64,000 nucleotides of DNA from Branchinecta lynchi (lineage: Eukaryota > Arthropoda > Branchiopoda > Anostraca > Branchinectidae). The notes beneath the pieces are model-generated. The model was not told where the DNA came from. It saw only the letters and a list, made by a program, of their open reading frames with translations, and did not search any database. Of the stretch, positions 8,401-59,463 are shown piece by piece (the first letter of the stretch is position 1; each line of letters starts with the position of its first letter). Location of the stretch: NCBI GenBank assembly GCA_023053575.1, contig JAKZAP010000007.1:12119508-12183507 (forward strand), written 5' to 3'. A program made the position numbers and the translations under genes.

Positions 8401-9221
8401 ATGGAGTTCTAGGATATAGAGCCCGGTGCCCGGCTAAGCTTGGAGACATACCTAGGCATCTGTGCTTGGCTAGGCTTGCTAGCCCGGACAGCTGTTATGG
8501 CACGTGGGGAGCCAAGCGTCAAAATGATAATTTCCATCTAATGCTCCAACTGTTTATTACAAATAAAACTAAATTAAACAACCAAGACCAGTGCGGTACC
8601 TCTGCAGACATACAAAAATTATCAATTAGGTCTTATAATTCTTTGCTAATCAACCCTGGAAAATCTCGTCATCTAGAAAAGAAGACTTTCGGCGTGGGTT
8701 TTTTCTCAAGCCGAAACAGCAACCCGGCAATCGCGTTCAATTCAAAATAAACCTGTGGCATGCGATTACTAAGAAAAAGACACTGCTTAAGACTATTAAA
8801 AGGCTAATAAGCCTATAAACATACTTTGAACAAAAATACTTACATTTTGTTCAGTTTTGTTGAACCTCGAGCCTCTAAGCCTAGTAAAAACCGATACTTC
8901 TAAGAAAATACTTGAATTTTTTTTCGTTTGGTTTGAGTGGACCCGGATCATTTGGTCTGGTGTTTTTTTGAGTTCTCTCTACCGTTCTTTTGTTTCTTCA
9001 TTTTTTTGTGTGATGTGTTAGTAAAGTAGTTCAATAGATTAAGAATCTTTACCACGGCCCTTTGGAGAGTTGGTGTTTATTCTATTTTGTTAATGAATAA
9101 TCTCTCTCTATCAGTTTCCCCCGGTTCTATACGATATTTGTTGACGGACCGATCGAAAGAGTTCCAACATGTGTGTGTGTGTGGGGGGGGGGGGTGTAAG
9201 GATGGATGAGCTAATACTTAC
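5490..9221 (-). other. PLPP: PLPP intron 6
   Basis: 3.7 kb with GT..AG ends. Only short non-coding open frames; a short AAATCAAAGAAAAAATCG block near 5585 recurs at 21661. Nothing further is recognised. Confidence 0.7.
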
Positions 9222-9398
9222 GTTAATGGATGCAACTGTTAGTCCCAGAACGGCTCCAGCCAGGACGTCGCTCCAATGGTGTTTGTAATCCGACACACGG
9301 GAGAGGGTAGTGAACCAAAAAAATGACAAAACCAAAGCCTGAAGACCCGGCCTGAGCAATTTGGAACCTCGCCAAGTCATGCGGGCTTGAAGGTATAT
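9222..9398 (-). CDS. PLPP: PLPP exon 6 (catalytic motif C3)
   Basis: 177 nt, phase 0 on both sides, between a CTTTGCAG acceptor and a GTAAGT donor. Encodes YLQARM, TM5 and SRVSDYKHHWSD (C3, SR-x5-H-x3-D; the histidine is the nucleophile in this family), then TM6. The strongest single family match of the gene. A poly-G/TG tract (9171-9196) lies just inside the following intron. Confidence 0.97.
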
Positions 9399-9614
9399 CT
9401 GCAAAGAGAGACTTCAGTTAGTCAAACTTCGTACGTCCTTTCCAGTGATGAAAATATTATAACTTCCGCTACGATTACGCCACGATTATACTAAACGATA
9501 ATTTGACACCAACTTTTTCGGGCTTGGTTGTCTAGTAATTTTAATTTTCATTTTGGTTAGGCTACTAGCCACGTATAACGGTTGGCCAAGTATGACAAGA
9601 ATATCCAAGCTTGA

Positions 9615-37462: not shown

Positions 37463-38183
37463 GTTTTCATAGTCTCAATATAAGTGGGATAGGGTGCCTC
37501 AGCCTTTGGGATAGCCTAGCTAGCGTTTGGTATAAGCCATACCAAACTGTGGGTATACCCAAAGTTTGACAAAGCCTATACAAAAATCAGGAATTCCTGG
37601 TAGACTGGTATAACCTACCCCACTTTATTCAATACAAATGAAGCACCACTACAGTCTAGCAGAAACAGGGTTTAGGTTCAAATGTTGACTAACAAACTCA
37701 AGCTACTCAAATTCATAGGAAAGAGGTAACAGAGGCGATATTAAGGTAAATGATTAAGATAATAAGTTGACTCAATTGTTATGATTACCGAAAAGTGTTG
37801 GGCTGTCATGTGTGAAAGCTTGGGTGCGAATCAATCGATTACAAATATAGACGGCCTCTTTGTATGAACTCTTTTCGTTTTACCCAAAGCAACAATCAGT
37901 CAATTATATTTATACAGCAGAATAACAGCAAGAATTACAAAAGAGAATTAAGGTTTAAACCAAACCATGCGGGCAGTGAAAGAAGGTGGGGGAAGCTGGT
38001 GGGAGGATCTGATTGGTTAGATCTTATGGCAGCTCATGCAGCAGCATTTCGAGTACAGGCAAAACAAATGACAAACAAATGTATCAGCGGAGTAGCATCC
38101 CAGAAACTGTAGGCATGCATCACAAACTCAAAAGGATAAGTGCATTCCCATTAGAAAGGAAACTTAATCTCACTCAAACTTAC

Positions 38184-38335
38184 CACAGTCATAGGCAAAA
38201 ATAAACAAACGGCACCAACAGCAAGTGATGGAAGTGTGCTATTTCTATATGGGTAATGGATCGAAACATCTCCACAAAAGAATCCCCTCTGTGCTGGGAA
38301 TGCCAACTTTGCACTTATCAAGACACAGAGACCAA
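38184..38335 (-). CDS. PLPP: PLPP exon 2a (alternative, proximal to exon 1)
   Basis: 152 nt between a GTTGTTAG acceptor and a GTAAGT donor, phases 1 and 0. Encodes the rest of TM1, the first outer loop with the family signature QRGFFCGDVSIHYPYRNST, and the start of TM2. It contains an NST sequon (residue 53) that exon 2b lacks. Homologous to 35597-35748 with the same length and phases. Using both copies would add 304 nt and break the frame, so only one can be used per mRNA. Confidence 0.93.
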
Positions 38336-40624
38336 CTAACAACAAAAGTAAAATATTAGGCTATATAAAGCATAAAATAAATTATAAAGCAAAGAAAAAC
38401 TAAAGAGGTTGCAAGTTTGAAACTCGTTGGATATTCCAAATTTTGAGGGACTGGACTACGGAAAGGTATGGTAAAGCAACAAATGTCAACTCTGAATGCA
38501 TGCGCATGTTACTGATTTACGGGGACTCGACCATTCAACAGATTTTTCGCCCACAGTGCTAAGTCTGGGCTGCCGAAGTTGCACCAACAGTTTACAAGAC
38601 TTTGGAAACAAAAAATAATCACTGAGTAAGCATATCTTGTCAAAAAGGTAAATCCGAAATCCATTCAAACTATATGTTACCACAAAATGTCAAAAAGAAT
38701 CACAGATCCCTCTCTAGTAATAATATATATAAAAATGTTTCTCCTTGTCATCTCACTGGTTTACCTCTGTACCAAAAGAAAACACAGGTCTATCATTGCT
38801 GGTGTGTTCTAGGGGTTTCCAATAGTTACTGAAAGCTGACATAATAATTCAGAACTGTATATCCGATGGTAGCTTTGTTAAAACCAGAATCTATTGCACC
38901 ACCCTACAAGAAGGCATAAGTGACAAACTGAGGACTAGGACAATCTTATTGACCACAAGGGCTAAATTATGAATTCTGTTTGTGTCTCATACCAATGAGG
39001 TCATCGCCTTGGTATTTGTCCTACTGGTCTAGCATGGGAATTATTCTTGTATTTCCCTTGCCACAGATAATATGCACCGAGCTTTTCAGAATCTTGGCTC
39101 TGAGTATTCCTGAGAATGTTGCAAGAACTTGGATCAAGTTGTTTTTGCTTTCCATTAAATTAGCAGTCCTTGGCTAATTCTACCAGCAGTTGACACAGGG
39201 TATACAAAAATCAGGGATTTGTGGTCAGTTTGTGGTAGACTGGGCAACCACTCCTGTACACTAATCCCTGTCTAAGCCTCAGTCATCATGCTCAAACGCT
39301 GGGGCACTCTGGCAGGGGTGAGCATGGTGACTCATACAATGATCCACGATGATACGGGGCTGGAGCCAGGGTTGAGCAAGGCCACAGTATGCTACCCCCA
39401 TACAAATATGTTGAACTGGAAATTACGTTGTGACATGCCCATTCGCTGGGGCACCATGCCCAAAAACTGAGGATTTGAGTATGACTGGTTAGGATTGCTC
39501 AGAAAATTCCTTCTAACCTTTAAGAGGCTAATTTCGAGATTACAAAGTTGGCAACCTCTCTTTTTCTATGTCTACTAGAGTCTAGTATAGATCTGGAGTA
39601 TGTTACTGTGGCATACTGTGGCTGGCTCACAACAGATCAGCAACAAAATATCAACAAAATCTAAACAGAACTACAGGAGGGGTATCCAACCTCGAATTTA
39701 CACAACCTCCAACCAAGCCTTAAAAGGTTGGAAGGAAATTTCAGTCCAAATCTAAAAAGGTACAGGAGGGGTACCTGACCTCCTTTTTACAATACCTAGA
39801 ATGTTGCCGCAAAAATGTTGAAATGAAATGTACATGCTGTCCTGAAAGTCAAGAGGCAAAATATGACCTTTTTCAACAGTCATGGAAGGTCATGGGTCCA
39901 AAAATATTCAAATTCTGTACCTTTTCATTGTTTTGAAGCTGCTCTGAAAAATAATTTTCTGACTACTAACTACCAGATTGAAGTTTTCGACAACCGGCCA
40001 GCCACCCAAAAAGAGACAGTGCATCCAGGAATATTTTTCAGCGAGCTTTTTGCATTGAAACTTGCATTGTGTCAACCCAGCTTAAGGATGATTCTAATGT
40101 GCAGGGGCGATGATTTTATGGGCATTTCTCCATTTTTCTCTTGGGTCAAGCACTTGGCTGTAACGCCCAATGACCCATTTGTTCGAATTGGGCCTTTTTG
40201 AGCAGCTGGTTGCTGGGCAAAAACTTCAAGCTGATTATTGACTTTGGTAACTCCGCCTTTCTGTTTTCATCCTTCTGGAAGTCACTGGGAGGAATCCGAG
40301 CTGAGGTTAGAATGAGGTGGTCTTGTTTGAAAAGAAAATATGTTTAACTAGAAATCTTTATGCAACATTTATTCATCCACTATGCAAACCATTCAATTAG
40401 CTTAAATCTAGTAGGCTATGTTTGTCATATTTGTTGTTTCCTTTTTACAGCCTTTTTAAGCCAGATAGATTATTCTGAAGGAAAGACTTCTCTGGAAATT
40501 TGAAATCTTGTCTGAGGTTGGATATCCTTCCTGTACTGTAATTTCTGTCGAGAAGGAACCCTGAGTGACCTATTACCTGTTTTCCCGTTTTGGACTGCAC
40601 AGAAAGTTTATAAGAATTAATTAC
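38336..40624 (-). other. PLPP: PLPP intron 1
   Basis: 2.3 kb between exon 1 and exon 2a, relatively free of recognisable transposons. No other gene, and no third exon-2 copy was found here. Confidence 0.7.
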
Positions 40625-41942: not shown

Positions 41943-42842
41943 CAAGTCGCGGCACTGTCTAGGGAACCGGGAGCCGTACTTTATGTCCTACGGGCTACAG
42001 AACCGGTAGTTCTCACGGAAACCAAACCAATGAGCTGCGATTCCGGGATCTAACGTGATTAACTAACGGAAACTTGTATGTGCTGGCTCCCGTTCCGGTA
42101 GTAAGTGGAAATAGCTCACGGAAAGTTCCCCGCACCAGCTTCTCGTCCGGTAGCCTCACTGAATTGTGTACTCAGAAGCTAGGGAGCCGTTAGTTCATAC
42201 CGGAAACTGTATAATTGGAGCTTCTGTTCCGGTAGTGTCTTAGTGGAATATAGAACTCACGAAATAGTTTGGACGAGAGCTAGGATGCCGGGATTTTCAC
42301 TGACTTAGAGAAAATAACATGGGAAAAACCCACTACCGGAACCCATATATTGAGAGCTAAGGTACCGTGAGCAACTACTATATGGTTGAAAATGACCAGC
42401 TCACGGACACAGATGGCTATGGGCTAGGGTTCCGGTAGTGCAAAAAAAAAAAAAATGAACTTACGGACGCATGTCAGTTCAGATTAGAAAAGCGGAAGTG
42501 AATATTTTTAACTCACGGAACCCAACTCCTGCGGGCTGGGGTTCCGGTAGTGCTAAAAAATAAAATTACAAACTCACGGACACGTGTCAATATGGACTTT
42601 GAGTCCGGTACAGCTCACGGAATCCAGTTCAAAAATCTTAATTTTTTGGCCCTACCGGAACCCCAGCAATCAGAAGTTGGGTTGAATTTATTACATTATT
42701 TAGCCTTACGGCATTTCACAAGTAGAAGTTGGGTTCCGTGAATTACAAATATTCACTTCCTGTTTCCTAGTCTGCACTGACATGCGTCCGTGAGTTAATT
42801 TTATTTTTATTTTTGGCACTACCGGAACCCTAGCCCATAGCC

Positions 42843-43921
42843 GGAAATATTAAGTACGGAAATATTTTTTCTGACCCACTTCCAACTTACTGTGGTGTGC
42901 CCGAAGGCACTCTGCTCGGGCCACTACTTTTCCTGGTCATGATCAATGACCTCGCAGGCTCTTGTGACGACCGCTGGAAATTCGTCGATGATCTCTCGAT
43001 CTTAGAGCTCTGTCAAGAATATCCGCTGCAGTGCAGCCACCATAATGAATGACATCAGTGAAGAAGCTTCCGTTAACAGAATGACTGTCAACTAAGACAA
43101 AACAGCCGTTCTAACTGTATGTTTTCTCAAGTCGAATCCAACTTTCCAACCTGACCTACCTGATCACAGCAGAGTGGAGGAGCTCAAACTTTTAGGTATT
43201 CACTTAACTTCAGATCTCAAGTGGGATAAGCAAGTTCAGTCTATGCTAAAAAGAGCCAATATGGGCATAAGTTCCCTGAAAATGCTCTCCCGCCATGGCA
43301 CCCCTAAACACCACCTCCTTCGCATTTACCTTGTGTTCATTCGCCCTTCCCTCGAATACTGTTGTCCGGTATGGCACTTCGGTTTAACACGGGAGCAGTC
43401 GGAACGACTCGAGAGGATCCAGTACCGTTCTTTACTAGTAATATCAGAATTCCCAAAAATCCCATACATTTCCCTACTTAACGAGTTTGGCCTCACATCT
43501 TTGTCAAACCGCAGACACCAACTTTCTACTAAGTTTGGTGACCAGCTACTGGAAAACCCCACCCATCGTCACATACTTCCCCCTCCCCACATTCCTGACC
43601 GTATCAGGCCACATAGAATGGCAGCACTACCAGTTCCTAAGATCCTACCCATACGGGCAACTCATGTGCGGTGTGAAAGAAGTTTTGTCTTCTCCTTTGT
43701 GAGTTTTTTCAATACAAAATTTTAAGTAAAACCTTTTTCCTTTTGGTGTTGATGTTTGGATTTTAGCGTTTTTAATTTGTTGTAACTTGTTGTTGTGTAA
43801 TTTATAAAAATTTGACTATGTTAAAGCACAAATTGTATATAATCATGTTTGACGAGAGAACAATTCGGTTTTTTGTTAATACCGTAAGGAAAGTTTTTGA
43901 AGAATGAAGATTGATTGATTG
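42843..43921 (+). pseudogene. 5'-truncated LINE reverse transcriptase nested in FB
   Basis: Starts inside the RT palm: VPEGTLLGPLLFLVMINDL then FVDD at about 42985, with a frame break before 43170. From 43174 an open 183-aa tail reads the post-RT domain (KLLGIHLTSDLKWDKQV, RPSLEYCCPVWHFGLTREQ). Ends in (GATT)n. ATAGCC is duplicated on both sides (42837-42842 and 43922-43927). PQG has become PEG and FADD has become FVDD. It belongs to the jockey/CR1 group and is clearly different from the intron-2 LINE. Confidence 0.88.
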
Positions 43922-46210: not shown

Positions 46211-47275
46211 GGGATCCCAAAACGTAAGTGGAGGGATACCTATGACATCGCAAAAGTTGTCCGTCTGTCCACACAATAACTCTCGAAGGGATTGAGATAT
46301 TTTGATGAAACTTTGTGAGAGGATCCTTTGGGCCAAGTACAGGTCAAGTTCGAAAATGGGATCTGAAGCCCTATATTTGAGGGTTGTGGAGGGGTTTCAA
46401 ATTAAGGGGGCAACACGAATATTTTTTTAAAGCTATTGAGGTAGTTGATTTAGAAGTAAAGAGACATGCTGAATTCGAATATGAAATTTATTTCCTCGCC
46501 GGACAAATAGTTCACCGGGAATCCGGCGAAAACCAGAAAATTTCTGAAAAGTAAAAGTTTAGTATGTGAGTTAATTAAAGGGTCGATTTAGGGGCAAGGA
46601 AACGTGCTGAGTCCGAATATGAAATTTATTTTCTCACCGGACAATTAGTTCGGCCGGAATCCGGCCAAAACCGGAGAATTTGTTAAAAGTAAAAGTTTTA
46701 TTTAAATTTGATCAGATGGTCGATTTGCAGGTAAGAAAATCATGCTGAATTCGAATATGACAGTCATTTTCTCAACGGATGTATAAATTGCTCGGAATCC
46801 GGCTAAAACCGGAAATTTCTTAAAAGTAAAAGTTTAATCTGAAGTTGATTAGAGGTTGGATGTAGGGGTAAGGAGACATATCTGAGCTTTAGTTTTTTGC
46901 CAGACAAGTAGTTTGTCTGGAATCCGGCCGAAACCGGAAGTTGATCAGAAGTAAGGAAGGAAGGAGATATGACGAAGGCTATAGGGTAAACCATATGCTG
47001 AATCCATATTTAAATATTTGACAGCGCAAAACGGATATCTGAATATATCTGAACTTGTTGAAATTCAGCTGGCTTATCCGGCTTGCACTGTCAAATACGA
47101 ACTTGGTCGTCTCCGATTATTACCATTGGCCTGTTTGTAATCGGCCTGTTGTAACCTGTTCGTAAACGTTAAAAGTAAAAATGCATAAGAAGTCTGTTGA
47201 AGACCGAATATCTACAAGACCAAATTGTCAGGAGCAAATATTAAAATTTTGGGATCCCATCGAAACCTGTCTTGT
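46211..47275. mobile_element. B element copy B3, SLC35C1 intron 1
   Basis: Complete ends and about four internal units with AATCCGGCCAAAACCGGA. Near its right end a small inverted repeat (47012-47097, GACAG..ACGGATA / TTATCCG..CTGTC) is inserted. Confidence 0.8.
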
Positions 47276-47949
47276 TTTTCACTGTTAGGATACTTGCTAT
47301 AGGATATAGGATACCTGCTGCCGTCACCCCCTGTACACTTACCAAATGTGTGAAATTAAGCCTTGATCAAAAGCTGTAATTATTTTCTTCAAAGTAATAT
47401 TTTTCTCTCTTTTGTTGAATCAAGTTTCAGCATAGCCAAATGCCTTTCTTCTAAACATCGCTGACCATTGCCAAATTGTAGTTGCACCAGCTTCCCTTTC
47501 GAACTTTCTTTTGCGGATGTCTTTGTGCTACCAGGTTAACCCAAGTATGATTATTTGCACCAGCGTTTTACCTTCGCGTGTATTTGCACCTTTTTTACTT
47601 GGCTTTGCACCAGGCAATTCTTCAAAGAAGAAATAGAAGTTAGTGGATGACATTTGGTACCAATTAATTTAGTTACGATGGATGTTTTCTAATGTTCCAC
47701 AGGCGATCGTTGTTATTTAGTCTTTGTTTATAAAAGTTAACTAGGGGTGATGCAAATATATGGGTGGTGTAAATAGCAAGGTATCCTGTAGTTGTTTGAT
47801 CAATTACCCAATGCTTTAGAGTCGGAAGTAAAATAGCCAACTGTCTGAAGTACCAAAATTAGTTCTGCCTTCAGACACAGTTTGTTGAATGTTATTACAA
47901 ACTGAGATTTTCTGCCTGTTGATGGGCAACTCATCTTTTGTTTTTCCAG

Positions 47950-48151
47950 GCTCATATCAATTTCGTTGGTCTTTGTCAACAAAAGTTTGCTTCCTACAGA
48001 CAAGTCGTCTCTTGATGCACCATTTTTTGTCACCTGGTTTCAGTGTGTTGTAACTGTTGCCATTTGCTATGTTCTTTCATTTATGGCAAAAATCAGTCCA
48101 AGACTTGTCAGCTTTCCTGATCTTTCAATCAGCAAGGATGTCCTCATTAAT
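47950..48151 (+). CDS. SLC35C1: SLC35C1 exon 2
   Basis: 202 nt between a GTTTTTCCAG acceptor and a GTAAGT donor. Encodes TM1 (LISISLVFVNKSLL), the loop SSLDAPFFVTWFQC and TM2, then SFPDLSISKDVLIN. Completes Trp44 and leaves in phase 0, which exon 3 at 54499 requires. The intervening 6.3-kb intron contains the antisense LINE. Confidence 0.95.
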
Positions 48152-49635
48152 GTAAGTATGTTGTAAAAAGTTTCTTCGAATAAGGATGCAGTATTTGCTA
48201 CTGGGATTAATCTTATCTCTACTGGGATAAGATTAATCCGAATTAGGGATAATCTTATCTCAATAAAGACAAAATTAACCCCAGACTGCAAGTTTTTTTT
48301 TACAGTGTATGCTGTTAGATCCAGTTTGGAAAACAATGTAACAAAATACAGAAATTAATTTTTCTCTGAATGAGCAATCCATCCTGTTATTAATGGCCTT
48401 GCTCTGGCATAGGCTACTCATTCACTTCTTTTCTTAAAGCACCCATGACACAATTTTTTTTTTTGCTGATTTAGTAGCAGTAAAATGTAGAATAGTCTTT
48501 TATTAATACCCAAATCGTAGACATGGGCCGACATGGCAAATACTGGATACTCGTCAAAACTACAGTAACGTGCAGCGACAACTATACTCTCCCTTTAGGC
48601 AGTCAGTACATGAAGGCGTATACTTAAATTAAAAATGGATTTATCAGTTAACCAAGTAGAGGGCCAACGGTCGCGCTGAAAACTGTGGCGGATTTTTCAA
48701 AAAATTTTGATCGAAGATTCTTGACACTTACTATGTACGACTAGCAGCTAATAGAAACATGGTCGTTTCCATTCCCTGGCTAAAAATGTTTGTCAAGGAG
48801 TCAGTGACGACGCAGTTAATTGGCGACTTGAATAGGCTAATCAGAATTATTTTGCACTTGTTTGCTTTTCCTTTTTCGTGTTCGTAATCACATAGCCTAA
48901 AATGAAACTGACAAGTGAAGAAATTTTCTTTTCAGAGAATCCGTAAATCTTTAGAAGTGATTTGCTTCCAAATTCTCATGTTTATCCACATGCATGGGGA
49001 TAAAAAAAATACCCGATTGCGATTCCGGGTTGAGCAGAAATTCTTTGAAATGTGACTGAAAATTAATAACTGAAATAGAGACGAATAGCGAAAGGGCGTA
49101 GTTACTGGCACGGATGCTTTAAAGCTAGTTCTTGATGCCCGTTATCGCTTTTCCCAGCAGATTCCAATCCGTCCAGAAATAAATAGGTCGGATCAAGTCA
49201 TTCCCATTAAAATTGATGTAAGAACCAAAGAACAGGAGTTACTGTTATATTTCTTTTTCTATACGAAAGGGTGTTCCTTAGTGAAACCATACCACATTTT
49301 TTTTCTTTTTTAGACAGAAAGAATAAGACTTTTTGATTCCAATGTGGTGAGAATCTGGCCTAGTACAACGGATTTTCGAAAAGTCTGGGTGTTGCCAGCA
49401 AGACTTACCTTTAGCATGTAGGTTCAAAGAAAAAGTCTAGCCCCAGTTAAGTTCTGACTATAATTGGTATTCTCGTTAGCTCTTGTTGTTGTTTTAGGTA
49501 TCCCTGGTATTATTACAAGGAGCCGAGCTGGGGCAGTTTTTTGCGAATTCAAGAGTTGAAGTATCAACGATTGGACTCATCATTCAAGCCCCGCTTTCCC
49601 ACCGCCGGGTTTGCACATCTTCTATCAATTCTCTC

Positions 49636-49982
49636 AATTCAATTCAATTCAATTCAATTCATTTTATTCATAAAAATAGAGAACACCATTAACTGTTTAT
49701 GGCCCCACCATAAGGCCTAACATAAGGCCTGGCAATGGGCGGGGCTTATTCATCATTCATATAATCTTAAGGGAAACAAACCAAAGAAATCAAAAAAAGA
49801 AAGAAAAGAAGGAGAGAAAACAGAAGAAGAAGAAAAGAAGAATGAGGGCATAACAAACTGGCAAGAGAAATTCACTAACGAACGATCTTCCATCAACAAA
49901 ACGCCCTTGCTCCCCCCTCACAAAAAAAACAAAAAAAAAACAAGGAAGGAAAAAAGAAAAAATTCAATTACGTTTTCAAACT
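49636..49982 (-). repeat. 3' UTR and (GAATT)n tail of the LINE
   Basis: Contains two GGCCTTATG-type direct copies and a GGGGCC block that can pair with the first GGCCCC, then TTTTTATGAATAAAATGAAT and the pentanucleotide tail. A similar 3'-end fragment without coding sequence lies at 60711-60840. Confidence 0.7.
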
Positions 49983-52900
49983 TTATGTTCTCGTTAAGAA
50001 AAAAGACTTGGCCTGTGACTTGAACGCTGAAAGGGTAGACGCAACCCTTACCTCCTCAGGTATTGAGTTCCACACCCCCGGAGCGAAGTGTTTTATTATG
50101 AAAGAAGCTCTTGTTGTTTTACGGGGGGCACTCGCCAACTGTCCGGCATTCCGAGTAGAATACTCGTGGAAATCCTGATTCTGTGAAAACAAATTCTGAA
50201 AAGATGAATTTAAATGATCATTAAAATACTTATAAGTGAAAACTGCAACTTGGTAATCTCTAATTGTGGCGACATCCATTATTTTATTAGATCTAAAACG
50301 TTCACTGCGATTCTTATTGGGGTCATGCGACGTGATTGCCCGGATAGCACTGTTCTGTAGATTTTGAACTTTCTTGTAACAAGATACAAAATTGCTAGCC
50401 CACACGGAGCATCCATAAATTAAGTAAGGATGAAAAATAGCATAATATATCATTCGTAGAATTTTAGATGATGCAATGTTTTTAACTCCCCTTATCACTC
50501 CAAGAGACCGAGAAAGTTTAGACGACAGAATATCGGCGTGTTCTTTCCATGACAAATTCTCATCAAGTAGAAAACCAAGGTATTTGACGGATTGCACTCT
50601 TTTGATGACTGAAGTACCCACCATAACTTGACCAGGGCTTGTTAGGGATGAGGTTCTCGAGAATACCATATAGTTTGTTTTAAAAAAATTCAGGGTTAGT
50701 AGGTGAGAATCAGTGAAATTGGTAAATTCAGCTAGTGCTTTTTTTAGCTTTTCGTATAAATCAGGTACAGAAGGGGCAGACAAAAAAAGAAGAGTGTCAT
50801 CAGCAAATAAAAGAATACCAGCTTCGGATAGGAAATATTTAACCGTGTCAATAAAAATAATAAAAAGTAATGGACCCAAAATCGAACCCTGTGGCACTCC
50901 GCAATGGATTGCACACTGTTCCGATGTAATACTACCGTTCATGACTACTTGTTTCCTTCCAAATAAATATGACCGAAGCCAGTCTAGTGCTTTACCCCCT
51001 ATTCCAATAGACTGTAAAGAATTTAGTAGTTCATGGTGGTCAACAGTATCAAATGCTTTTTTTAAGTCCAAAAATATTGCAGCTGGAATCAAACCATTTT
51101 CAAAAGCTTCGTTAATCCAATCTACTAGTTTAATGATAGCTAAGTCCGTTGACAGACCTTTGCGGAACCCAAATTGAGTATCGAGCAGAATTTTATTATC
51201 TTCAACGTGTCTGGAAAGTTGACCGTGCACTATTTTTTCGTAAACTTTAGAAAAAAAAGGAAGGATTGATATTGGTCTTTTGTTACTTGCTTCATCTTTT
51301 TTCCCGGATTTATGTAAAGGAATTACCCGCGCCAGCTTCAAAGCTTCAGGGAAGATTCCTGTTTTAATAGATAAATTTATTAAATGGACAAGTATAGGAA
51401 TTAGGGATTGTTTAGCTGCCCTTACAATTTTTAAACTTATCCCATCAACACCACAAGAATTCGATTTCATATTATTAATGATTTTATTAATTTCCTCAGA
51501 TGAACATGCAGTAAAATGCAGTTCTGAAAAAAGTGGTCTGTTTATCGCTAGCGGGACTGGGTTTGCTTTACGACGCGCTTCCTCACACAGTCGTCTGCCT
51601 TCGGAAGAAAAATAATTACAAAGGTAATCAGCAATTAGCTTGGGATCTTCGAGCCTTCCGTGAGCAGAATTTAATATTTTAATCTCATCACAAGATGGCC
51701 GTTTACCAAGTAAATCATTTATACTCTTCCATACTTTCTTCATATTCCCATTACAAGAAGCAAACTGATCTTCATAATATTTAATCCGAGCTCTTCTTCG
51801 TATAGAATTTAACTGATTGCGATACGCTTTATAACGCGCATGGTTCTCAATAGAAGGATCATTTATATACACACGAAAAAGTTTATTTTTATTTTTTACT
51901 GAGATTACAAGTCCAGGCGTCATCCAGGGTTTTCTTGGAAAATTCCTTTTCCCTTTCTTACAATCCTGAAGGGGGCAAGCCAAATCCATTGCTTTTGTTA
52001 TAGTTTCTGAAAAAAGATCATATGCTTTACTTGGGCAATCTTCATTTATTACTGGAGAAAAATCTTGCTCGTCCAAAATCTTACTAAACTTGTGTAAATT
52101 TGTTTCATTCATTAACCGATAAGACTGCCTTGTGTTAATCTTAAACCGCTCCTTACTGTTTAGTCTTATTTTGGATAACAGGAAAAAATGATCAGATCCA
52201 TCTGTAACAACCACATCAGCGAAAGACCTCTCAAAAAATGCACTGTCACAGAAAATGTTGTCAATTAGCGTCGCCGACTTGTTTGTTATTCGAGTTGGAA
52301 CAGTGACTAACGGATAGTTATCCGAAGAAATCATTAAGTTTACAAAATCGTAACTATCGTTCTTATTTAAAAGATTTATGTTGAAATCCCCCATTATTAT
52401 TCGACTTTTGTTTTCATCGTTTACCCGTTCAAGTACATTTCCCAATTGCTGAAGAAATTCCTTATTATTGTAAGAAGGGACTTTATACACTAAACCAAGG
52501 ATCAAGTTTTTTCCACGAGTATTCTTAATTTCAATAAACATTGTTTCAAGTCTACCTTCAAGCCACAGGGAAAGATCCTCTCTCACCCAATACGAAATAT
52601 CATCTTTTATTAGCAAAGCAAGGCCGCCTTTTTCCATGGAGGATCGTTCGCGACGTTCACATTTGTAACCGGGAAAAGGAAAATCCCAAGGAAGCGATTT
52701 CTTAGACACGAAAGTCTCACACAAACCAATTATCGACGGTACGCAAATTAGTGACGATAAAGTGTCACATAAAGATGAATAAGCAGTTCGCAAACCTTGG
52801 CAATTCCACAACCCAAAAATCATACTATTATCTGAGGTATTCGCCCATTCACTTGAATTTGAACAACCAAGAGAAATGTATTTGCTTGGGCGAGGATGAT

Positions 52901-53048
52901 CAGTTACAAGATTTCTAGTACAATCATCGTCACCCGCAATAGGCATTCCAAGAACACTATCAGGTGAAAACGGGTTGTTTTCAAATTCCTTCAAAAGCAC
53001 GTCATCTGATTGATTTGAATATGCAGGGAAATTAGAAGCACTACACAT
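49983..53048 (-). CDS. LINE ORF2 protein: APE endonuclease and reverse transcriptase
   Basis: 1021 aa, uninterrupted. Residues 78-295 form an apurinic-like endonuclease: N82 (WNCQG), E111 (CETF), GGLALL 141-146, GDFN 220-223, ID 262-263, SDH 285-287, with all catalytic positions present. Residues about 570-850 form the reverse transcriptase: ARVIPLHKSG, RPISILPFFSKVYEKI, FLDLKKAFDTVDH, GVPQGSILGPLLF and the active-site FADD 748-751. The C-terminus (IYGCSVWASN, VWNSIPEEV) is typical of CR1/L2/jockey-group elements; no RNase H is seen. It nicks target DNA and primes cDNA synthesis there. The first about 75 residues are not recognised. Confidence 0.97.
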   Translation of the reverse strand: MCSASNFPAYSNQSDDVLLKEFENNPFSPDSVLGMPIAGDDDCTRNLVTDHPRPSKYISLGCSNSSEWANTSDNSMIFGLWNCQGLRTAYSSLCDTLSSLICVPSIIGLCETFVSKKSLPWDFPFPGYKCERRERSSMEKGGLALLIKDDISYWVREDLSLWLEGRLETMFIEIKNTRGKNLILGLVYKVPSYNNKEFLQQLGNVLERVNDENKSRIIMGDFNINLLNKNDSYDFVNLMISSDNYPLVTVPTRITNKSATLIDNIFCDSAFFERSFADVVVTDGSDHFFLLSKIRLNSKERFKINTRQSYRLMNETNLHKFSKILDEQDFSPVINEDCPSKAYDLFSETITKAMDLACPLQDCKKGKRNFPRKPWMTPGLVISVKNKNKLFRVYINDPSIENHARYKAYRNQLNSIRRRARIKYYEDQFASCNGNMKKVWKSINDLLGKRPSCDEIKILNSAHGRLEDPKLIADYLCNYFSSEGRRLCEEARRKANPVPLAINRPLFSELHFTACSSEEINKIINNMKSNSCGVDGISLKIVRAAKQSLIPILVHLINLSIKTGIFPEALKLARVIPLHKSGKKDEASNKRPISILPFFSKVYEKIVHGQLSRHVEDNKILLDTQFGFRKGLSTDLAIIKLVDWINEAFENGLIPAAIFLDLKKAFDTVDHHELLNSLQSIGIGGKALDWLRSYLFGRKQVVMNGSITSEQCAIHCGVPQGSILGPLLFIIFIDTVKYFLSEAGILLFADDTLLFLSAPSVPDLYEKLKKALAEFTNFTDSHLLTLNFFKTNYMVFSRTSSLTSPGQVMVGTSVIKRVQSVKYLGFLLDENLSWKEHADILSSKLSRSLGVIRGVKNIASSKILRMIYYAIFHPYLIYGCSVWASNFVSCYKKVQNLQNSAIRAITSHDPNKNRSERFRSNKIMDVATIRDYQVAVFTYKYFNDHLNSSFQNLFSQNQDFHEYSTRNAGQLASAPRKTTRASFIIKHFAPGVWNSIPEEVRVASTLSAFKSQAKSFFLTRT

Positions 53049-53093
53049 ATGTTAACAAATATAAAAATACGTTAAAGCACGAGGTTATTACTA

Positions 53094-54113
53094 CTAACAG
53101 ATATCGTCAAGGGACCAAAGCCTGCGCGTCGTATCATTTCCTGGGAGCCGAACGTACACACGACCGCGGCTGGACCACACGTTCTTATTACCGTACTGGT
53201 CTCGACCAGCCTGCAGAATGTCACGCCTTCGGTTCGTGAGATTCTCCGATAGAAAGAGTCCTGTTTTCGCAAGTTTTCCTTTTGCTTTGAACACTTTTTC
53301 CGCCAGTTCTTTGCTTGCGAATCTCACGAGTACAGGGGCTATCTTATCAGGACGACTAGGGTCAGCAACCAATGGAAAACGCGAAACTGCAATGACGTCA
53401 CTACTCGCTAGTCCAGTTAGGCCTAACTGATTCTGGATAACACCAGTAACTACAGCTTTCAATTCTGCTCCTTGATCTTGTTTAACTCCGAGAAATAACA
53501 GAGAGTCAAGGCGTGACTCTTGTTCATGATCATCTAGCTTTGTTTCTATTTTTACGATCCTTGCTTCCAAGAGATGAACTTGTTGTTTTAGCGATTTGAG
53601 ATGCTTTTCAACGGCTTCAAATTTTGGTGAGAACTCAAGAGTTATGGCGTTGTATATATCGTTTATAACAGTGTCTGTAGAAATGGGTGTGACAGTCGAG
53701 GCAAGGGCTTTCTGAACCTTCTCATTTATAGCCGCTTTCAAACTTTCTTTAGTTATGGTAACTTCCTGCTCCGCCGTGTCAATCCGCTTCAGTAGATCTG
53801 AAGTCGCAGCAGACGCATCACCCGGGTCAGTACCGGAAGTTTCAGCTTCAAGATATACATTAGGCTGTAATGCCAGTTCCTCAAATGCCGCTTTCACTCC
53901 CTTAGCGCTTTTTTTCATTGCATCTGTTTTATTAGATTCAAAATCTCGAAGTTGGGATTCTGTGACTCTGCATCTATCATGGCTGCCGTAGCAGAAAACG
54001 CTATACTGGAACTTTCCTGACGTAGTTTTGTTCGCACGTAGGATACGGACTGGCCATAACGGATAACCGGCAAAACTGGCCAATGCCAAATCACCCAGAT
54101 GGAACTGAACCAT
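53094..54113 (-). CDS. LINE ORF1 protein with N-terminal PWWP-like domain
   Basis: 339 aa. Residues 5-62 read as a PWWP domain: GDLALASFAGYPLWPVRIL matches the family's GDLVWAK..GYP.WPA start, with YPLWP at 17-21 in place of PWWP, then KFQYSVFCYGSHDRCRV like the second half (…V.FFG…). PWWP domains bind methylated histone lysine (mostly H3K36me) together with DNA. Residues about 160-200 form a heptad-like coiled coil, and 200-322 look like the RRM/C-terminal domain of LINE ORF1 proteins (VLVRFASKELAEKVFKAKGK, LFLSENLTNRRRDI, NVWSSRGRVYVRL). Expected role: an RNA-binding trimer in the retrotransposition particle, here with a chromatin-reading module. The ATG at 54113 is the first in frame; see the finding on a possible 55-nt intron that would extend the N-terminus. 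Confidence 0.88.
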   Translation of the reverse strand: MVQFHLGDLALASFAGYPLWPVRILRANKTTSGKFQYSVFCYGSHDRCRVTESQLRDFESNKTDAMKKSAKGVKAAFEELALQPNVYLEAETSGTDPGDASAATSDLLKRIDTAEQEVTITKESLKAAINEKVQKALASTVTPISTDTVINDIYNAITLEFSPKFEAVEKHLKSLKQQVHLLEARIVKIETKLDDHEQESRLDSLLFLGVKQDQGAELKAVVTGVIQNQLGLTGLASSDVIAVSRFPLVADPSRPDKIAPVLVRFASKELAEKVFKAKGKLAKTGLFLSENLTNRRRDILQAGRDQYGNKNVWSSRGRVYVRLPGNDTTRRLWSLDDIC

Positions 54114-54498
54114 TTGGGTTTGCGGATTATTAATATGTAGATAGTACTAGTTGACTTACTTCCCCGGGGCCTTCTTGTCCCCGTCGACGAAATGACGCTT
54201 CTAAAATATCCAATCTGTTTGCAAATAACGCAGCAAACTTTGCTTCCTCCGGCACGATAATTTGTCAGCAAAAAAGTCTATACACTTGTACTTGGCTCAA
54301 GCATTGCGATACTGAGCATAGAGTGTGCACTGTCTGACTGTCTTGTCTCAAACAAATTTTCTGCCGGATAGTTTTTGTATAGTTATCTCTCACTCTGTTG
54401 GACGAGTATACCTCTGTGCGCACTGGAATGAATAGTTGTGTCTGCTCTAGGGCGCGACTGAATGACTCAAATCCTTGTTTAACAGTAGTCTGTTGCAG

Positions 54499-56793: not shown

Positions 56794-56880
56794 GAATGAG
56801 TACCTCAAGGAATGCCATCATTTGCTGTGGAATAATCATCGGTGGATTCTGGTTGGGTGTAGACCAAGAGGGGAGCTCAG
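56794..56880 (+). CDS. SLC35C1: SLC35C1 exon 4
   Basis: 87 nt between a T-rich tract ending TTTAAG and a GTAAAT donor. A|GA gives Arg, then [19 protein letters not shown] and LGVDQEGSS, a family signature. Leaves in phase 1 to make Gly with exon 5. The acceptor is weak at -3 (AAG) but the pyrimidine tract is long. Confidence 0.95.
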
Positions 56881-57260: not shown

Positions 57261-58558
57261 AAGCGTATTCTCGCCGTTCCTCGGGGTATCAGAGGCAACG
57301 GCTAGAATAGAGGGAGTCACTCCACGCGGACTCCGCGTCCGGAAAACAACGAGAACACGGGAAATGCTTCCAAAATGAATTTTCTTCCAAAAATAAAAAT
57401 GCAGTTGACGAAATTAGTCTGGATCCACTTTATTTCTGGTTTTGTTTATTCTGATTCTTTTTAATTAATTTTACATTGCACCAACACCAGCAAAAATGCG
57501 TTCCCCTCTGTATCTGAAAGGGGGATCCCAAAACGTAAGTGGAGGGATACCTATGACAATGCAAAAGTTGTCCGACTGTCCGTCCGTTCGTCCGTCTGTC
57601 TGTCAGCACGATAACTCTCGAAGGGAATGAGATATTTTGATGAAACTTGGTGTCAGGACTCTTCGAGTCAAGGGAAAGGTCGAGTTGTCGATAGGTCGAT
57701 AGCTGCATATTTAGGGGAGGGGGAGGGGTTTCAAATAAGGGGCGAAACAAATATTTTTTGAAAAGCTAATGAGATAGTTGATTACGGAGTAAGACGACAT
57801 GCTGAACACGAATATGAAAACCTCGGAATCCGGCTAAAACCGGAAAGTTTGTCAAAAATAAAAGATTAATCTGAAGTTGATTAGAGGTTCGATTTAAGGA
57901 TAGTGAAACATGCTGAATACGAATATGAAAATTATTCTGTCGCCGGACAAGTAGATTGCGCGGAATCCGGCCATAACCGGGAAATCTGTTAAAAGTAAAA
58001 GTTTTATATCAATTTCATTAGGTGTTCGATAAACGGGTAAGAAGGCATGCTGAATTCGTGTTTGACAATCATTTTATACCTGGACACATTTCACCACGAA
58101 TCCTGCTGAATTCGGAAAGTTTGTTCAAAGTTGGAAGTTTTATGTGAAGTTGATTATGGAGATATGGATGTTATGGAGATACGCTGAATCAGTTTTGAAC
58201 TTCAGTTTTTTGCAAGACAAGTAGTTCGACCGGAATCCGGCTGAAACCGGAAATTTGGCAGGAACTTTCGTCAAAGTAGACATGACGCAGGCTATAGGGG
58301 TAAACTCACAAGCTGAATCCATATTTGAACTTCGTCTTCTCCGATGATTACCACTGGACCGCTACAAGACCCGATTGTCTGTAAATATTAAATTTTTGGG
58401 ATCCCATCGAAACCTTTGGTCTTGTTAATGATGGTGAGGATAATCGGAGCATTTTCCGTCCGTGAGAACTTGCGAGAATACGGGACTGAGTCCCCGGGAC
58501 AAACAAAAACGCGGGGACTCCTCAAGTGGAGTCCTCGGGGAACGGCGAGAGTACGCCT
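57261..58558. mobile_element. TIR element A copy A3, interrupted by a B element (SLC35C1 intron 4)
   Basis: Outer parts 57261-57521 and 58427-58558 match the complete copy at 41529-41942 in reverse, with TIRs AGCGTATTCTCGCCGTTCC and GGAACGGCGAGAGTACGCC. Between them sits an inserted B element (57522-58426), which splits A at its CTGAAAGGGAGTCC site. B moved after A. Confidence 0.82.
57522..58426. mobile_element. B element copy B4, nested in element A
   Basis: GGGATCCCAAAACGTAAG start, GTCCGTCCGTTCG tract, four units, end AAACCTTTGGTCTTGTT. Interrupts A3 in SLC35C1 intron 4. Confidence 0.82.
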
Positions 58559-58763: not shown

Positions 58764-59070
58764 ACTATGGCCGAAACACAGCCAAAGGCGAACTTTTACA
58801 GTGCATAAGGGGCAGGGGCCTGCCAGCTAGCTTTGGGTACACTAAGGAGGGGGTTCGAGATAACAAAGAAGGGGGGTCCTGTCGACAATAAGTCCCTGTA
58901 TCTTTATTTAAGCCCCCCAGGTCGGTTTGATGGCCGAAAGTTGCGTAGTCAAGTTTTCTGTGCCTTTAATAGACTTTCGTGTTAAATTTTGCCAGACTTC
59001 TTGCAGTGCAACCTCGTGACTCGGAGTTTTGTTATTATTCCGTTTACCTTACATGTGTCTTGTTCTTCAG

Positions 59071-59363
59071 GTACCCTTTCAGTATTGGGCACAGTCTACG
59101 GTGTCTTGGCTTCCCTGTTCGTGTCTCTTAACGCCATCTACACAAAGAAAGTCATGCCGCATGTCAACGATAACATTTGGCTGCTAACGTTTTATAATAA
59201 CGTTAACGCCTGTCTTCTTTTCCTGCCTTTGATGGTGGTGGCGGGAGAGGTAGATGCTGTTGCTTCTTTTGATGGATTTTCGGACACGGTTTACTGGACG
59301 AAGATGATACTTGGCGGTGTCTTTGGATTTGCCATTGGATACGTTACTGGACTTCAGATTAAG
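59071..59363 (+). CDS. SLC35C1: SLC35C1 exon 5
   Basis: 293 nt between a TTCTTCAG acceptor and a GTGAGT donor. Covers TM6 to TM8: [57 protein letters not shown] and [17 protein letters not shown]. Phase 1 in, 0 out. It has the highest density of residues shared with the vertebrate transporter. Confidence 0.97.
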
Positions 59364-59463
59364 GTGAGTTTGTTTTGCAGTTGCGGGTTGTGGAGAGAGA
59401 GATCTGTGAGTTAAGAGTGTATGTCTCCACAACCTGGATAAGAGATTGAGAATTACAGGTTAG

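Follow-up and report, generated by a model that had tools for sequence, protein, structure and literature searches.

A LINE family of Branchinecta lynchi with a PWWP domain at the head of ORF1 and different histories of ORF1 and ORF2

Chromodomain-containing LTR retrotransposons use, or have been proposed to use, a reader of histone marks for placing new copies. Among described LINEs, the closest are those with a PHD-headed type II ORF1 (type IIC), which occur in L2 subgroup 6 and CR1 subgroup 5 (Metcalfe and Casane 2014, PMC4120745). The domains listed in that survey of 448 elements are RRM, CCHC, PHD, CTD, esterase and zinc finger/leucine zipper; PWWP does not occur in its main text, which also reports signs of ORF1 exchange between lineages and states that, as of 2014, the authors knew of no study addressing the function of the PHD in LINEs (PMC4120745). 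The LINE described here shares with type IIC LINEs an APE-RT ORF2 and an ORF1 composed of a histone-reader-type head, a coiled coil, an RRM and a CTD, but its reader is a PWWP domain instead of a PHD finger, and this head bears on the question of what role ORF1 heads play in L2/CR1 LINEs. Human L1 ORF1p, also of type II (PDB 2yko/2ykq), carries a basic patch in its N terminus (PMC12047440), in contrast to the folded PWWP found here. No description of a LINE with a PWWP was found by title and abstract start among the matches listed, in a search that reached subscription journals only in small part, and the portions seen of PMC13345969 and PMC6877644 likewise describe none; this agrees with the earlier note on this DNA, which had pointed to no such family.

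The window, that is, the whole analysed stretch of 64,000 nucleotides, contains a near full-length LINE copy of ~4.83 kb on its minus strand (49637..54464), the strand of all element features given below. The 5' boundary at 54464 is common to two other genomic copies, L003 and L007; since these two agree with each other for a few bases further upstream, the window copy may be slightly shorter at its 5' end. A 5' UTR of 351 bp (54114..54464) is followed by ORF1 (53094..54113, 339 aa), a 45-nt spacer from the ORF1 stop to the ORF2 ATG (53049..53093) and an intact ORF2 of 1021 aa (49983..53048). ORF1 consists of a PWWP domain (residues 1-90, 53844..54113) with the cage positions F14, Y17, W20 and C41, a coiled coil (residues 97-201, 53511..53825) modelled as two long helices (97-138 and 146-201), the second of which lies within the match to the L1 ORF1p trimer, and an L1-type RRM (~202-292) and CTD (~293-339; together 53097..53510). 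The presence of coiled coil, RRM and CTD identifies this protein as a type II (L1-like) ORF1; a PHD finger gave no Pfam match at E <= 5, which places it outside type IIC, and Transposase_22 was also absent among the matches at this threshold. Three of 15 ORF1s matched the baculovirus FP protein domain 2 (PF25298; best E 3.3e-5).

ORF2 contains an APE endonuclease domain (residues 81-287, 52188..52808; PF03372, E 9e-12) and a reverse transcriptase domain (residues 583-826, 50571..51302; PF00078, E 6.9e-36), and RNase H gave no Pfam match at E <= 5, a composition that agrees with an APE-type LINE of the L2/CR1 kind. From these general features, we take the clade of the window LINE to be of this kind. 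The copy ends in a (TGAAT)n tail (49637..49661) after an AATAAA-like stretch. In 7 of the 18 elements examined (the window copy, L034, L039, L040, L043, L046 and L048), a short repeat directly follows a stretch that is AATAAA-like or A-rich, at 4.4-4.7 kb from where ORF1 starts; the repeat lies elsewhere or is unclear in six, and none was found in five. By eye, a 5-bp TTGAG is a possible target-site duplication, though an unconvincing one.

On the window ORF1, PF00855 (PWWP) scores 32.8 bits against a curated cut-off of 25.6 and is the sole Pfam family at E <= 0.01; it was matched at E <= 1e-3 in 14 of 15 ORF1s. The predicted structure has the PWWP fold, with a five-strand barrel and C-terminal helices, and the PWWP entries among the structure matches listed are mostly HDGF-family chromatin proteins, with one (6kco) representing a complex with ssDNA. 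The fold match was repeated using a model headed by the environmental ORF1 P0009. The earlier note had proposed that a PWWP head is joined to a coiled coil, a LINE ORF1 RNA-binding-like part and an intact ORF2 in a single element, and it had called for a comparison of the head with PWWP structures; profile, fold and frame evidence bear out the combination, and the barrel matched HDGF-family PWWPs. An artefactual or chance PWWP is ruled out by sequence, profile and fold, together with the other copies.

The PSIP1 cage is formed by M15, Y18, W21 and F44 (PMC3663649), and F14, Y17, W20 and C41 of ORF1 occupy these places in a profile alignment to HDGF and PSIP1. The PWWPs of HDGF and PSIP1 (LEDGF) resemble the ORF1 head in the barrel plus helices, the PxWP motif and the cage places F14 (M in PSIP1), Y17 and W20. 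However, they have FFFG where ORF1 has FCYG, hence the Cys at the PSIP1 F44 place, and the ORF1 domain forms part of a retrotransposon RNA-binding protein. Across 23 clusters cut at 85% identity (13 from the window genome and 10 of environmental proteins), F14, W20 and C41 are identical in all, Y17 is kept in 21 (F in one and C in one), the FCYG strand is invariant in all 23, and a His at the PSIP1 H48 place is found in 22. As aligned, the family has aromatics at three predicted cage positions and a cysteine fixed at the fourth. Of the residues previously read as the cage (F14, W20 and F40), F14 and W20 stood, whereas F40 was replaced, since it aligns to PSIP1 F43, the neighbour of the F44 place, where the invariant Cys stands; the cage is thus better read as F14/Y17/W20/C41. 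Human PWWPs have a three-aromatic cage with two named exceptions, and incomplete cages are known from MBD5 and the N-terminal PWWP of NSD1 (PMC3119473). In PSIP1, F44A abolished binding, perhaps via misfolding (PMC3663649). Judged from the alignment, this non-canonical cage weighs against a methyl-reading tether.

A search of the same genome (576 Mb, 216 contigs) with ORF1 yielded at least 137 match rows, including that of the window copy itself; because 119 of 552 candidates were scored, this is a lower bound on the number of places, and one copy can yield two rows. By hand count, 62 of the 137 rows run uninterrupted from query residue 6 or earlier to residue 323 or later. One further row (C157:40937) has a 379-aa open frame with no N-terminal match among the matches listed. 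Another genomic copy is 99.87% identical to the window copy over 2342 bp, indicating that the copies are young and that the LINE was recently active. Among environmental proteins, 13 matched the ORF1 profile at E <= 0.1, including the seven that matched the single ORF1 sequence at E <= 1, and seven of the 13 carry PF00855. Three of the 13 (P0004, P0005 and P0007) are 79-83% identical to families of the window genome, suggesting that other, probably related species carry these families. The PWWP and the following ORF1 parts lie in one uninterrupted frame at many genomic loci and in environmental contigs. Absence of the domain from other copies had been named beforehand as evidence against the PWWP reading; the domain is present in other copies and families, with the sampling bias that the query used to find the genomic families was an ORF1 containing the PWWP. 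Viral contigs gave 21 pattern matches, none of which is a relative.

The 23 clusters were drawn from 53 rows that do not represent 53 independent copies, since L001 is the window copy and L031-L040 duplicate earlier loci. Loci were extracted when a frame of at least 200 aa contained a PxWP...FxYG-like motif, and the cluster count is without nine loci (L004, L005, L006, L028, L007, L008, L047, L049 and L050). The first four lack such a motif in a long frame, and L007 and L008, which are one locus, were omitted for a frame of 179 aa although PWWP-bearing. L047 has F14, Y17, W20 and C41, with PPWP instead of PLWP; the N-termini of L049 and L050 are damaged.

Among 20 representatives (190 pairs), mean pairwise amino acid identity is 47.6% for the PWWP (minimum 35%), 46.4% for the CTD, 44.7% for the RRM and 37.1% for the coiled coil, and invariant positions number 13 of 85, 4 of 44, 7 of 92 and 3 of 112, respectively. 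The PWWP head is therefore conserved no less strongly than the RNA-binding core. In a dN/dS comparison by domain, silent sites were saturated between families and just four pairs were in range, all of which include L003, whose C-terminal part does not align. The retention of the PWWP over many subfamilies suggests that it may serve the element in locating or holding on to landing sites.

The ORF1 and ORF2 of the window family have different histories. Identities of ORF1 and ORF2 are correlated across 14 elements (Mantel r 0.84; 0 of 5000 permutations as high), and the window element departs from this relation. Its ORF1 groups with L032, L034, L036, L043 and L044 (support 99/98), whereas for ORF2 its closest grouping is with L046 (100/100), joined at the next level by L045, L047 and L048 (100/100). 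AU tests rejected the grouping of the window element with L046 in ORF1 (p 1.6e-4) and with L043 in ORF2 (p 4.9e-8); these groups, like those of all AU tests on the chimera, were picked after the identity tables had been inspected, so the p-values are somewhat generous. The ORF2s of the window element and L046 share 84% of amino acids over 543 columns, whereas the PWWP-ORF1s differ. In 200-base bins, identity to L046 rises from 41-57% on the upstream side of the ORF1/ORF2 junction, near 53010, to 66-89% on its downstream side, and the blastn match between the two (80.8% over 3380 columns) starts at 53009. We place the recombination point of the chimera at ~53010 (53005..53050), where the identity shifts. 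The L046 grouping was rejected for the PWWP part (p 0.034) as well as for the rest of ORF1 (p 0.020), modest values that fit a transfer of ORF1 as a unit. Six copies (L003, L004, L005, L006, L007 and L031) cross the chimeric junction, which indicates that the recombinant is a transposing family; the same observation rules out that the chimera arose by local nesting.

The L046 locus (C4:19736000-19744300) thus has a closely related ORF2 and a different PWWP-ORF1. ORF1s of the L046 type account for 18 rows of the own-genome search (query 1-323, 41%), and their similar scores suggest a recent burst. With close ORF2s and different PWWP-ORF1s, the window family and its L046 relative offer a ready-made comparison of insertion patterns.

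For an ORF2 tree, we used 52 ORF2s, of which 13 have a known PWWP-ORF1 and the remaining 39, environmental or database proteins, were chosen by hand from the best 120 of 6764 matches. All 13 PWWP-LINE ORF2s belong to a clade of 22 rows (SH-aLRT 100) that also contains the nine proteins P0014-P0022; the other 30 ORF2s lie outside, with P0050 and P0066 as sisters. An exclusive clade of the 13 was rejected (p 4e-4), as is expected from the nesting of P0014-P0022 among them. This topology would fit a single PWWP acquisition in the ancestor of the clade, in a test biased by the selection of the genomic members via ORF1. P0064, an environmental protein resembling a LINE ORF2, combines APE and RT with a PHD domain (PF00628) in a single chain.

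How the ORF1 head might act can be considered by analogy with LEDGF. The PWWP is the key determinant of the chromatin sites of LEDGF, and when its PWWP and AT hooks were swapped for a PHD finger, HIV-1 integration moved to TSSs (PMC4176367). Binding of the PSIP1 PWWP to an H3K36me3 peptide is weak (KD 17 mM) and nucleosomal DNA is needed; methyl specificity is strongly reduced by M15A or Y18A, and the M15A protein is not enriched at genes marked by H3K36me3 (PMC3663649). In Drosophila JASPer, Y23A and W26A, which affect two cage residues, abolished specific H3K36me3 binding (PMC6877644). In L1, many ORF1p molecules assemble on the element's RNA, and RNP condensates critically require the ORF1p N terminus in order to bind DNA (PMC12047440). 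We consider it slightly more probable than the alternatives combined that the window element represents a recently active APE-type LINE whose HDGF/PSIP1-type PWWP-ORF1p tethers the RNP to methyl-marked chromatin during integration. ORF1p would trimerise via its coiled coil, as L1 ORF1p does, and many PWWP heads would thus be present per particle. Each head would bind nucleosomal DNA together with a methylated lysine, for which H3K36me2/3, the mark read by HDGF-family PWWPs, is the most likely candidate; the many weak contacts would sum and hold the RNP on marked chromatin, where ORF2p would nick the DNA and copy the RNA. Avidity from a trimer makes sense given the weak, DNA-dependent peptide binding of PSIP1. 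As in LEDGF-tethered lentiviral integration, a histone-mark reader is proposed to place new copies. LEDGF, however, is a host protein acting on integrase, whereas the reader here is encoded by the element in ORF1 and would serve target-primed reverse transcription, so that the element may be a self-contained counterpart of the lentiviral tether. The step from ORF1 architecture to targeting is an inference by analogy. The wider proposal, that a whole LINE clade has its own PWWP reader, multiplied on the ORF1 trimer, swapped between lineages and placing copies in chosen chromatin as an internal LEDGF, is plausible but has somewhat less than an even chance in our judgement.

Among the alternatives, the one that deserves most weight, although we regard it as rather unlikely, is that the PWWP serves for general anchoring to DNA or nucleosomes without methyl reading, acting in nuclear entry, retention on mitotic chromosomes or nucleic-acid chaperoning. 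PWWPs bind DNA (PMC3119473), the N terminus of human L1 ORF1p, including its basic patch, does a comparable job (PMC12047440), and the place of PSIP1 F44 has no aromatic; the match to 6kco, in which a PWWP binds ssDNA, implies that such a domain may serve nucleic-acid binding alone. However, plain DNA binding would not need the three aromatic cage positions, which are nearly unchanged, and the net charge of the PWWP stretch ranges from +4 to -2 among 12 families and is negative in two of them, so that a DNA-binding face may not be shared by all families. The unusual, invariant FCYG strand could also mean a changed ligand, such as a host protein or a methylated non-histone protein bound in place of nucleosomes for reaching transcribed loci or evading silencing; given that the matches of the domain are mostly HDGF-family chromatin proteins and that no partner is known, this seems improbable.

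The domain might also be a passenger that was captured a single time and has been inherited since then without contributing to transposition. Decay or loss would then be expected, whereas the PWWP is the best-conserved segment of ORF1, and we give this reading very little credence. Even less credible is a fusion artefact, in which neighbouring elements or an assembly error joined a host PWWP exon to a LINE ORF1. The window element is indeed chimeric, but at the ORF1/ORF2 junction, which other copies share, and the single frame at many loci and in environmental contigs speaks against it; this explanation is already refuted by the copies. Tethering to methyl-marked chromatin, the reading that we prefer, can be examined sharply through the PWWP head, because the ligand, the cage residues and loss-of-specificity mutants have been worked out for PSIP1.

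The window copy likely lies antisense within an intron of a plus-strand transporter gene, as judged from open frames and a single profile match. A host exon of the EamA/nucleotide-sugar-transporter type (58986..59411, +) matches PF00892 at E 3.5e-4, below the curated cut-off. Other probable exons on the plus strand are an upstream open frame (47906..48166) with no Pfam or PDB match, an open frame with a 21-letter peptide stretch then GT (56800..56880), whose identity is presumed, and a further one at ~61938, found by eye; the exon at 58986..59411 has no PDB match either. We presume that the host gene is SLC35C1-like, with the exons near 47906, 56800 and 61938 assigned by eye. The earlier note's placement of the copy in a gene intron is thus supported in part: the copy lies antisense between probable transporter exons, one with a weak EamA match, whereas the identity of the gene and of the other exons is presumptive.

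The same note had suggested that the element may steer itself to gene bodies; neither this nor steering to H3K36me3 gained support. CpG depletion of flanks, considered as a sign of gene bodies, was rejected, since CpG o/e did not differ between 31 5' flanks (mean 0.90) and 72 window pieces (0.90; p 0.74). This proxy is weak: it presupposes methylation in the species, has one window as control, and uses flanks that were cut 500 bases upstream of ORF1 regardless of the 5' UTR and include that of the window copy itself (L001). Host context was read for the window copy, and from a single intronic copy no preference can be inferred.

Several other features of the window were observed. A 2-kb block (38001-40000) has a CpG o/e of 0.31 against 0.90 for the window. 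A remnant of another LINE-like RT lies at 42834-43725 (+), with RVT_1 matched at E 0.0019, below cut-off, in 42834-43049 and no match in its second part. Two tandem repeats, whose units of 138 and 137 bp look similar on visual inspection, flank the LINE (46447-46874 and 57824-58086). In addition, an exon-like ORF at 9114-9413 (-) matches the PAP2 phosphatase family (PF01569, E 3.6e-8).
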